Below, in pieces: positions 9,449 to 13,015 of a DNA stretch of 25,461 bases. The DNA comes from a virus, in IMG/VR virus record IMGVR_UViG_3300017762_000070, positions 1 through 25,461 of that record; one strand, written 5' to 3'. Below the pieces are notes generated by a model. The model was not told the DNA's origin. It ran no database searches and saw nothing but the letters and a program-made list of their open reading frames with translations. Position numbers and translations under genes: made by a program. Numbering within the stretch: position 1 is the stretch's first letter; each line of letters opens with the position of its first letter.

Positions 9449-10153
9449 ATGATTCCTAAATTAACTCGCCCTGAATATAGTACAACTATCCCTTCCACAG
9501 GTAAGAAGATTAAGTATCACCCCTTCACTGTAAGAGAAGAGAAGGTGTTGATGTTGGCAGCAGAAGGTGCTGATCAAGACGAGATTACAAATGCAGTCAT
9601 CAATTGTCTAAACACTTGTATCAGTTCACCATCTGATATTGATGTTGAATCTCTTGCCCTGTTTGACATTGAGTATCTATTTCTAAAGACAAGATCCAAA
9701 TCTGTCGGTGAACTCATTAGTGTAAGAGTAACTGATCCTGATGATGAGACTTTCACTACTGATGTAGAAATCAATATTGATAAGATTGGAATTAAGAAAC
9801 AGGAAGATCACTCACCGCTCATCAAGATTGATGATGAAGTGTCTGTGACAATGAGGTATCCTGACATTTCATTCTTCAATACAGGAGTTAATCTAAACAC
9901 TGTGAACTCAACAATTGAAGTTGTTGGTAAGTGTATTGATCAGATTATCGTTGGTGAAGAGGTTTATAATAAGGAAGACATGACAAATGAAGAAGTGTTA
10001 GATTGGGTTGAGGGACTGTCACAGAAGCAGTTCAATGAGTTTACAAACTTCTTCAACTCAATGCCTAAGATGTCTTACACCATCACAGCTAAGAACACCA
10101 ATACCAAAAAGAACTTTAGTGTAACACTGGAGGGACTAGCAGATTTTTTCTAG
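9449..10153 (+). CDS. gp26: gp26-like baseplate hub / tail assembly chaperone
   Basis: 234 residues; T4 gp26 is 208. The T4 gp26 family N-terminus is clear: RPEYSTTIPSTGKKIKYHPFTVREEKVLMLAAEG, then INCLNTCISSPSDIDVESLALFDIEYLFLKTRSKSVGE. A conserved C-terminal beta-domain ends KNTNTKKNFSVTLEGLADFF. In T4, gp26 is required for hub assembly together with gp51. The last sense codons GAT TTT TTC contain the slippery heptamer T-TTT-TTC and are followed directly by TAG. An overlapping -1 frame continues for 64 codons, and the tape-measure-like gene comes next. I infer that this protein is the short form of a frameshifted tail chaperone pair comparable to lambda gpG/gpGT. Confidence 0.88.
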   Translation: MIPKLTRPEYSTTIPSTGKKIKYHPFTVREEKVLMLAAEGADQDEITNAVINCLNTCISSPSDIDVESLALFDIEYLFLKTRSKSVGELISVRVTDPDDETFTTDVEINIDKIGIKKQEDHSPLIKIDDEVSVTMRYPDISFFNTGVNLNTVNSTIEVVGKCIDQIIVGEEVYNKEDMTNEEVLDWVEGLSQKQFNEFTNFFNSMPKMSYTITAKNTNTKKNFSVTLEGLADFF

Positions 10154-10185
10154 TGGGAATGGTACACACAGGGTTGTTACCATTC
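10129..10185 (+). promoter_or_regulatory. Programmed -1 ribosomal frameshift signal
   Basis: Three elements in the right order. An internal Shine-Dalgarno-like GGAGGG (10129-10134) lies 9 nt before the heptamer T-TTT-TTC (10144-10150), which is in the zero frame of gp26 (GAT TTT TTC TAG). A hairpin GAATGGTA (10157-10164) / TACCATTC (10178-10185) starts 6 nt downstream; it has 8 perfect pairs, with three further inner pairs possible (ACA/TGT past one bulge). This is the layout of the E. coli dnaX frameshift site. Slippage avoids the TAG at 10151 and reads CTA GTG GGA ATG... into the next frame. Confidence 0.8.
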
Positions 10186-10347
10186 TACGAAAAAGTATTC
10201 GCACTCAACCATCATCATAACTGGAGCATTGTAGATGTTGAGAACCTATTTCCATGGGAACTTGATGTATACACCACTCTTTTAGCTAATTATATTGATA
10301 CGATTGAGACATTAAGGAAGAATAGAGACTTCGCAAATGGCAGATAA
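10153..10347 (+). CDS. -1 frame extension of gp26 (T-like chaperone part; gp51 position)
   Basis: 64 codons beginning at the GTG that overlaps the gp26 stop by one base: GTGLLPFYEKVFALNHHHNWSIVDVENLFPWELDVYTTLLANYIDTIETLRKNRDFANGR is its content, starting MGMVH. It is all-helical with a PWELDVYTxLL motif, like the short T domains of tail assembly chaperones. No Shine-Dalgarno stands at a usable distance from the GTG (10153) or ATG (10159). A -1 slip at 10144-10150 would join it to gp26 as a 299-residue fusion (234 + Leu + 64). It occupies the place of T4 gene 51, whose product is 249 residues and independent. Separate translation by termination-reinitiation is the alternative. Confidence 0.8.
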   Translation: MGMVHTGLLPFYEKVFALNHHHNWSIVDVENLFPWELDVYTTLLANYIDTIETLRKNRDFANGR

Positions 10348-10369: not shown

Positions 10370-13015
10370 ATGGCGTTAGTTGAGAGCTTATTGTTAGCAG
10401 GCAAAGAGAATCAAAAGACGCTTTCTAACATTGAGAAGTCTCTTGTTGGAAGTGAGAAGAGAGAGAAGAAAGAATCTATTACCTCAAGGATGAGGGAGAG
10501 GAGAGAAGATCAGAAAGAACTGCGCAATAAGAGAGCTGCCAAGGGCAATGGAGAAATTGTATCTCTTCTACAGGAGATAAAGGAATGCGTATGTGATTGT
10601 GATGGTAAGAAGAAAGGTGGTAAGGGTGATGATAATAATTTATTGAAGATGCTTGGTTTAGGTGCCGCAGGTCTTGCGCTTGCACCTTTACTGGGTGGCA
10701 TCGCTGCGATTGTTAAACTCTCTGAGACACTTGGAGATCTAAGAGCAAAACTTGGTGAAGCAATTAAGGAAGGATTATCTAATGCAGGTGACTGGATTGG
10801 AGATAGGTTAGGAGATTTACAAGGTTTACCTGATAAGGTAAGAGAAGGATTAGATAAAGCACTTGAAGAAAGTGGAATCAAAAACATTGGCGACCAGTTA
10901 CAGACTGGTACTGAGAACCTTGTTGTCATCTCTGAGAGACTGCTGGATAAAGGCAAAGAAGTTACTGCTCCTGTTGTTGAAAGTGTATCAACAGCTGCAC
11001 AAGAGGGATGGGACAGTTTAATTGACTTTGGAGAGTCATTAAAAGGCATTGATCTTGGTGCTAAAGTCAATCAACTCTTTGCTCCCATGGAGGGAAGCAA
11101 TGGATTTGCAATGGACGACATAAGTTCTTGGATGGAACAAAGTCCAGCCTTGAGTTTATTAAATCAATTTGTTCAGAAGCTTGGAAAAGTAGCAGCTGCA
11201 GTTGTAGGTATTGGTGCAGCAGCGTTCAATTTAGATGGACAACAATTTGCATTCCAAAATGGTGGTCCTGTATGGTCAGTTCCTGGCACAGGAACAGGAG
11301 ACAAACCAAATCCTAAGACAGGTAAACCCTATCAGTTGAAGCCCGGTTCTTTTGTTCTGAATCGTAATGCATCAAACTACCTAAGGAAACAAAAGGGTGG
11401 TTCAATTCCTGCAATCTTAGAACCAGGTGAGTTAGTTTTTCCTAAGACAACTAACAGTCTCAAGAAATTAAACTCCTCCATACCAAGATTCCAATCAGGT
11501 GGTGAGGTGAGTCACCCTGACACAGGCACTGGATTCCAACCAGGCAATGCTACTGATCAGTCAGGACGTCCTGTTGTTCTGAGTGAGGGTGCAGCAGAAG
11601 CCTTCAAGAAGATGATGGATGTTGGTGGTGTCAAGGGAACTGATGTAGCATCTTCAAGGAGAAGTGCCAAAAAGAATGCTGCTGTTGGTGGTGTTCCTGG
11701 TTCTGCACACCTTGGTGGTAACGCAATTGACATTCATGGTTCGTCTAAGGCATGGATGATTGAGAACAGTGACAAGTTTGGATGGAAGAGAAATAATTAT
11801 ATGGCTGACAGTTGGCACTGGGATTTTACTGGAAAGAATTCAGGTAACACAGGAACTAATAAGGGTGTGAATGAAGGTAATGATGACAAGAGAGAGAACA
11901 AAGATACAGAGAAAAAGGCGTTCTCAATAGAAGGAATTTTATCAGGTGCATCAAATGCGTTAACTGGATTGTTTGGTGGAGGATTGGGTACCATAATGGG
12001 GCAGATCCTGGGCAACTCAGACATTATGGGTAAACTTTCATCAGATCAGTTAGCTCAAAGAGAAGAAGATAAGGGTTGGTTGTCTAATTTTAGTGGGATG
12101 TTTGGAGACTTATTTTCCGTTCTAACATCTAAGAAGGAAACAGAAAATAATACTGATTATGGTGCTGGTGTTGGACCTGCTGGAGCAGGTGGTGCTGGCG
12201 CGACATCTATAAGTGATCCTAATGCAAAAGCATTACTAAATGCTATTGCTGACGCTGAGGGCACATCAAAATATGCCAACCAGGGTTACAACACACAATT
12301 TACAGGAAAACAATTCAAGGGAACTGACCACCCAAGAGAAGTAATTAATAGTGGAGGATATGGTTCTGATGCAGCAGGTAGATATCAGTTCCTGAGTACA
12401 ACTTGGGATGGGACTGGTGGCGGTGAGATGACACCTGAAAGACAAGACAAAGCCGCACTCAAACTTGTCTCTGGTAGAGGAGTTAATCTAAGTGATGGAC
12501 TTTCTAAGAAGGAAGTGTACAAATTAGGTGGAGAGTGGGCATCCATTGAGGGCGGACCTACAATGAGTAAGGGTGGTTCATATGGTGGACAGGCTAAGTT
12601 CTCAGCTGAAAAATTTCTGGGAATGTATAAGAGTTATGGTGGACAGATAGAGGAACTTCAAAATGGTGGCACAGTTGGTGCATACTTAGAAGGTGGTGAG
12701 ACTGTTTGGCCTAGTGCAAATAGTGCTCTTCAGAGTCTCAATTCAGCAGTCCCTAGATTCCAAACAGGCGGAATGGTTTCACCGCCACCAACAACAGCAT
12801 CAAATGAATTGATGAGACAGATTGAGATGCTCACAGCAGAGATCACTACACAGAATAAGGATCCAATTGTTGTTCCTGTACCATCAGGTGGTGAAAGTGG
12901 TGGAGCAAGGGCAGAATCAACAGGCAATGCACCACCTCCAATGCCTTCTGGACCATCAGTCAACTTCCTAACTGATGTAATCAACAGAGTTAATATGGGT
13001 TCAGTGTTCTCATGA
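10370..13015 (+). CDS. Tape-measure/hub protein with M15 peptidase and lysozyme-like domains
   Basis: 881 residues. Residues 1-85 are charged and helical. Residues 90-117 are strongly hydrophobic (LGLGAAGLALAPLLGGIAAIV), as in tape-measure proteins. Three Gly/Pro motifs of the type GGxV...PGExVxN recur near 295-330, 341-381 and 762-803. Residues about 402-490 resemble a zinc D-Ala-D-Ala carboxypeptidase (M15): SAHLGGNAID with H447 and D454, and WHWDF with H483. Residues about 615-745 resemble a phage muramidase: IADAEGT with E630, then HPR and DAAGRYQFLSTTWD. Its place right after the chaperone-type gene and before gp27 argues for the tape measure (T4 gp29 role, 590 residues), carrying wall-cutting enzymes to the cell. 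It ends in an ATGA overlap with gp27. A hub lysozyme rather than true tape measure is the alternative. Confidence 0.8.
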   Translation: MALVESLLLAGKENQKTLSNIEKSLVGSEKREKKESITSRMRERREDQKELRNKRAAKGNGEIVSLLQEIKECVCDCDGKKKGGKGDDNNLLKMLGLGAAGLALAPLLGGIAAIVKLSETLGDLRAKLGEAIKEGLSNAGDWIGDRLGDLQGLPDKVREGLDKALEESGIKNIGDQLQTGTENLVVISERLLDKGKEVTAPVVESVSTAAQEGWDSLIDFGESLKGIDLGAKVNQLFAPMEGSNGFAMDDISSWMEQSPALSLLNQFVQKLGKVAAAVVGIGAAAFNLDGQQFAFQNGGPVWSVPGTGTGDKPNPKTGKPYQLKPGSFVLNRNASNYLRKQKGGSIPAILEPGELVFPKTTNSLKKLNSSIPRFQSGGEVSHPDTGTGFQPGNATDQSGRPVVLSEGAAEAFKKMMDVGGVKGTDVASSRRSAKKNAAVGGVPGSAHLGGNAIDIHGSSKAWMIENSDKFGWKRNNYMADSWHWDFTGKNSGNTGTNKGVNEGNDDKRENKDTEKKAFSIEGILSGASNALTGLFGGGLGTIMGQILGNSDIMGKLSSDQLAQREEDKGWLSNFSGMFGDLFSVLTSKKETENNTDYGAGVGPAGAGGAGATSISDPNAKALLNAIADAEGTSKYANQGYNTQFTGKQFKGTDHPREVINSGGYGSDAAGRYQFLSTTWDGTGGGEMTPERQDKAALKLVSGRGVNLSDGLSKKEVYKLGGEWASIEGGPTMSKGGSYGGQAKFSAEKFLGMYKSYGGQIEELQNGGTVGAYLEGGETVWPSANSALQSLNSAVPRFQTGGMVSPPPTTASNELMRQIEMLTAEITTQNKDPIVVPVPSGGESGGARAESTGNAPPPMPSGPSVNFLTDVINRVNMGSVFS

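Follow-up and report, generated by a model that had tools for sequence, protein, structure and literature searches.

Genes and signals at the gp26 junction

The window analysed here is the whole stretch of viral DNA, 25,461 nucleotides in length, taken from IMG/VR record IMGVR_UViG_3300017762_000070. It carries a gp26-like gene, a short segment in the −1 frame that resembles the C-terminus of T4 gp51, and a large open reading frame to which a tape-measure role can be ascribed provisionally (Table 1). In HTVC008M, the gene at the corresponding place is annotated as a putative tail tape measure and comes after one extra small gene. The gp26-like frame ends with the codons GAT (10142), TTT (10145), TTC (10148) and TAG (10151), which places the heptamer in the correct X-XXY-YYZ phase. 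No stop interrupts the −1 frame between a point just past position 10117 and the stop codon at 10345–10347; it comprises 65 codons when counted from 10150 and was listed as an open reading frame of 64 codons at 10153–10347. A −1 shift at the heptamer would yield a fusion of 299 residues with the junction ...GLADFFLVGM....

Table 1. Features of the gp26 junction and its downstream neighbour in the window
Feature	Coordinates	Strand	Basis
gp26-like zero-frame gene (TAC-N, 234 aa)	9449..10153	+	PF12322 (T4_baseplate) E 5e-59; phrog_150 (baseplate hub) E 7.5e-62
SD-like GGAGGG, 9 nt 5′ of the heptamer	10129..10134	+	Window sequence; GAGGG/GGAGGG enriched among relatives
Candidate slippery heptamer T-TTT-TTC	10144..10150	+	In phase in 109/116 clusters; preceding codon always NNT
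−1 frame after the putative shift; TAC-C domain	10150..10347	+	phrog_634 (baseplate hub assembly catalyst, gp51) E 3e-16; homologous to T4 gp51 C-terminus
Zero-frame stop TAG, abutting the heptamer	10151..10153	+	Read from sequence
Downstream hairpin (arms 10157–10164 and 10178–10185)	10157..10185	+	Window fold; covarying counterpart in marine relatives
Large tape-measure-like protein (881 aa), 3′ of the cassette	10370..13015	+	Location and size; M15 peptidase and transglycosylase-like matches

The TTTTTTC string occurs once on the plus strand of the whole window, and among the window genes examined this is the only slippery heptamer found in phase within 5 codons of a stop. The left arm of the hairpin, GAATGGTA, is the exact reverse complement of the right arm, TACCATTC, giving a perfect 8-bp stem that begins 6 nt 3′ of the heptamer. 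The 50 nt 3′ of the heptamer have a folding energy of −12.4 kcal/mol, compared with a mean of −7.0 for shuffles, and the hairpin region has a z of −2.57, with 3 of 200 shuffles folding as well. Upon re-reading of the window, every coordinate given in the original prediction for the heptamer, its phase, the upstream GGAGGG and the stem was verified. The same holds for the GAT TTT TTC TAG ending of the zero frame and, over positions 10117–10347, for the exact −1 register of the downstream frame and the length of the fusion.

The E. coli dnaX signal consists of an upstream SD, the heptamer A AAA AAG and a downstream hairpin, and its frameshift product is a shorter protein. The original prediction had likened the window site to it, and the resemblance is borne out: a phased X-XXY-YYZ heptamer, an SD-like element about 10 nt upstream and a hairpin within 5–8 nt downstream, as in dnaX-type sites, are all present with similar spacings. 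The two differ in that the window heptamer is T-TTT-TTC and that the window product would be longer.

Conservation of the heptamer and of its codons

Relatives were collected by tblastn, which found gp26 in 679 phage records and the −1 frame (ORF2) in 505. Junctions were read in 187 loci that fall into 116 clusters at 80% protein identity. An alignment of the junction across relatives had been proposed as a check on the original prediction; in the junctions read here, the heptamer is in phase 0, 1 or 2 codons before the stop in 109 of the 116 clusters, as T TTT TTC in 105 and as T TTT TTT in 4. These clusters include phages of Synechococcus and Prochlorococcus, Pelagibacter phage HTVC008M, Methylophilales phage Melnitz, Sinorhizobium phage phiM7, Aeromonas phages Aeh1 and 65, Vibrio phage K566, Stenotrophomonas phage Bhz51, Ochrobactrum phage ORM20 and Acidovorax phage ACP17. 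The gp26 protein is 100% identical in two IMG/VR contigs (L002 and L003), which have the same junction, and the nearest named relatives are the Synechococcus phages S-B68, S-CREM2, S-H34 and S-CRM01, all Kyanoviridae. S-CRM01 and syn9 share the cassette. The seven clusters lacking the heptamer are T4 and Acinetobacter ZZ1, both of which carry a separate gene 51, Vibrio D533, VAP7, two other Ackermannviridae, and one contig (L170) that lacks it only because its gp26 frame breaks mid-gene.

Codon usage at the site is strongly constrained. The codon before TTT encodes five different amino acids (D, S, A, N, G) and ends in T in 109/109 clusters (AGT 46, GAT 26, TCT 23, GCT 10, AAT 3, GGT 1), compared with 32–79% T-ending codons for those residues in the same genes. 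Likewise, the first Phe of the heptamer is TTT in 109/109 clusters versus 66% overall. Naive probabilities are about 1e-24 for the T-ending preceding codon and about 1e-19 for the first Phe; both are overstated because the clusters share ancestry, and they are inflated further by a search conditioned on the T run, a condition that only 7 of the 116 clusters failed.

Two trivial origins of the junction were rejected: a heptamer present by chance, given its in-phase conservation across clusters, and one gene cut in two by a sequencing error, which would not account for the recurrence of this −1 break in many independent genomes.

Conservation of the putative stimulators

In 78/109 clusters, the 20 nt preceding the heptamer contain GAGGG or GGAGGG, and GAG encodes the Glu of the EG motif in 78 of 98 cases, versus a GAG share of 33% among Glu codons overall. 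The 45 nt 3′ of the heptamer have a mean folding z of −2.47 over the 109 clusters, with z < −1.5 in 73 of them. Covariation was evaluated on 90 gap-free sequences with one codon between heptamer and stop, using an 11-bp stem. Paired cells amount to 67.5% (n=90) versus at most 44.6% in slid registers, and the covariation score is 0.173 against a shuffle mean of 0.135 (0/500 shuffles as high; slid registers at most 0.112). On paired cells, too, the stem scores higher than each of the 500 shuffles and every slid register; its position inside coding sequence and its selection from among sequences that fold well restrict how far these values can be read.

As for the window hairpin itself, a similar stem is present among the closest relatives (L004, L006, L007, L011), and three others (L008, L017, L018) fold differently or weakly at this place, so that it is only partly shared.

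Start codons in the −1 frame and other ways to its product

The original prediction had stated that the −1 frame has no usable ribosome site. Start codons do exist in the window, namely a GTG at 10153 and an ATG at 10159. The only strong SD-like element available to them is GGAGGG, at least 18 nt upstream, which is too far and disfavours ordinary initiation at either codon; the statement stands with this nuance. In 27 of the 109 clusters, one has to go at least 16 codons into the −1 frame to meet an ATG, and the motif LExYYxxNFALM is conserved in the −1 peptide even where no start codon precedes it.

Ribosomes terminating at TAG could instead restart at the GTG or at the ATG, releasing a free small gp51 and no fusion. 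The TAGTG overlap in the window would suit such stop–start coupling, as would an ATG or GTG overlapping the zero-frame stop in 16/109 clusters, from which some separate gp51 could also be made, and the outgroups D533 (L030) and VAP7 (L031), which have no heptamer and show TAATG before ORF2. However, the overlap is absent from most clusters, and 19/109 lack ATG, GTG and TTG alike over the initial 16 codons of the conserved −1 peptide. Moreover, the T-ending codon and the TTT constraint play no role in reinitiation, and T4 carries the fusion in a single frame. We consider coupling a distinctly improbable source of the −1 product.

RNA polymerase slippage on the T run, adding or dropping a U, would give a mixed mRNA and the same fusion with no ribosomal frameshifting, and runs are longer in some relatives (T8 in phiM7, at least T8 in HTVC008M and Melnitz), but the window run is just T6, which is short for bacterial polymerase slippage, and the precise X-XXY-YYZ phase, the SD-like element and the hairpin fit the ribosome instead, making this the least credible of the explanations. 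At the loci with long T runs (L014, L026, L015), polymerase slippage could also contribute.

Several public annotations start gp51 inside or after LExYYxxNFALM (syn9, P-TIM40, HTVC008M), and gp51 is left out of the ACG-2014d annotation. Such omissions and internal starts are expected if the −1 frame has no start codon of its own. The cyanophage records at four loci (L013, L020, L024, L025), with gp51 missing or given a doubtful internal start, are flagged accordingly.

T4 gp51 as an in-frame counterpart of the predicted fusion

Where the window phage has a single gene with a putative frameshift, T4 has two, genes 26 and 51, which stand apart from each other in divergent orientation. T4 gp51 matches PF12322 over residues 1–201 and phrog_634 over residues 147–246. 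A profile built from 107 −1 frames matches the gp51 proteins of 44RR (E 5e-10), EC-F2 (7e-8) and T4 (4e-7), and in a multiple alignment the matching part is the C-terminal end of gp51; T4 gp26 gave no match with this profile. T4 gp51 is therefore a gp26-like domain with this C-terminal part as an extension in one frame, which makes it an in-frame counterpart of the predicted frameshift fusion, with T4 gp26 as that of the short form. Together with the family matches in Table 1, this layout agrees with the earlier assignment of the two parts to gp26 and gp51. As judged from sequence, T4 encodes as two genes, 26 and 51, the short and long chaperone that the window phage would make by frameshifting. 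Both T4 proteins have been classed as hub assembly chaperones (PMC3004832), and these long-standing hub-assembly genes would be explained as encoding one chaperone in a short and a long version.

The structure model of the window gp26 is confident (pLDDT 90.9). In the PDB it comes closest to the HK97 tail assembly chaperone 2ob9, two chains of which rank first and third; this match is weak (E 0.32, probability 0.60) and only suggestive of a shared fold. No meaningful match was obtained in a PDB fold search with the T4 gp51-like model, and a search of solved structures by sequence matched none for gp26 or T4 gp51.

A probable frameshift cassette for tail assembly chaperones

Comparison of sequences establishes the cassette, its conservation and its homology to T4 gp26 and gp51. 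The in-phase heptamer, the clusters with no start codon, the SD bias and the covariation strongly support the original prediction that a programmed −1 ribosomal frameshift yields gp26 and a gp26–gp51 fusion as tail assembly chaperones, a reading that we put at roughly 93%. In this reading, gp26 (TAC-N) would come from the majority of ribosomes, which terminate at TAG. Some would slip at T-TTT-TTC, aided by the SD-like GGAGGG and the hairpin, and make the fusion (TAC-NC). If the two products act as lambda gpG and gpGT do, the short one may coat the tape measure protein, and recruitment of tail tube subunits may fall to the long one. We infer the slippage itself, its rate, the ratio of the products and the chaperone action from these features.

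The likeness to lambda gpG/gpGT is one of arrangement: a short chaperone gene with a −1 frameshift near its end, which gives a short and a long form, precedes the tape measure in lambda, and the putative cassette of the window precedes the tape-measure-like gene. The frameshifting has been measured in lambda, whereas it is inferred in the window, and the lambda heptamer differs from that of the window. Phages of the P2/Mu type and the Vandenendeviridae/Andersonviridae resemble the predicted arrangement too, with contractile tails, a −1 frameshift before the tape measure and a poly-T site; the tail chaperone frameshift motif of Vandenendeviridae is GTTTTT (PMC12846349).

A 2016 review (PMC5009743) still excepted T4 from the G–T frameshift pattern. 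The original prediction had called the arrangement unreported for T4-type phages, which is wrong: the chaperone idea is already published, and the arrangement was proposed for T4-like phages in 2022. As cited in PMC10885494 and PMC12846349 for T4-like TAC genes, Vladimirov, Gautam & Davidson (Virology 2022;566:9–15) identified T4-like tail assembly chaperones. A passage of the phage Adele paper (PMC12846349) describes poly-T −1 frameshift signals as known in TAC-N genes of T4-like phages, and one in the PRFect paper (PMC10885494) mentions separate short and long TAC genes in some of them. The T4-like chaperones belong to the same protein families as the parts found in the window and comprise a short gp26-type and a long gp51-type form; the poly-T −1 signal in their TAC-N genes is as cited in PMC12846349. 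The window cassette is thus a well-supported further case of a published arrangement. Vladimirov and colleagues reportedly found in 2022 that several T4-like groups share conserved frameshifting, and that genes 26 and 51 are the ones used by T4. Dense comparative evidence is added here, comprising the 109 clusters, the wobble-base constraint, the SD bias and the hairpin covariation.

A variant junction in Ackermannviridae

At the 3′ end of gp26 in Ackermannviridae (L116, L117, L202–L219), the −1 ORF2 homologue is retained and T TTT TTY is absent. The junction is nearly invariant, reading GAR ATT TTC ATT TAA. Tentatively, and with the odds against it, frameshifting could be ancestral in T4-related phages, the T4 group having swapped it for a gene duplication and Ackermannviridae making the fusion through this undescribed, non-heptameric signal. 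In Kuttervirus, no ATG, GTG or TTG is found where the conserved −1 peptide begins; the Ackermannviridae junction may work through another kind of recoding signal or through initiation at AUU.
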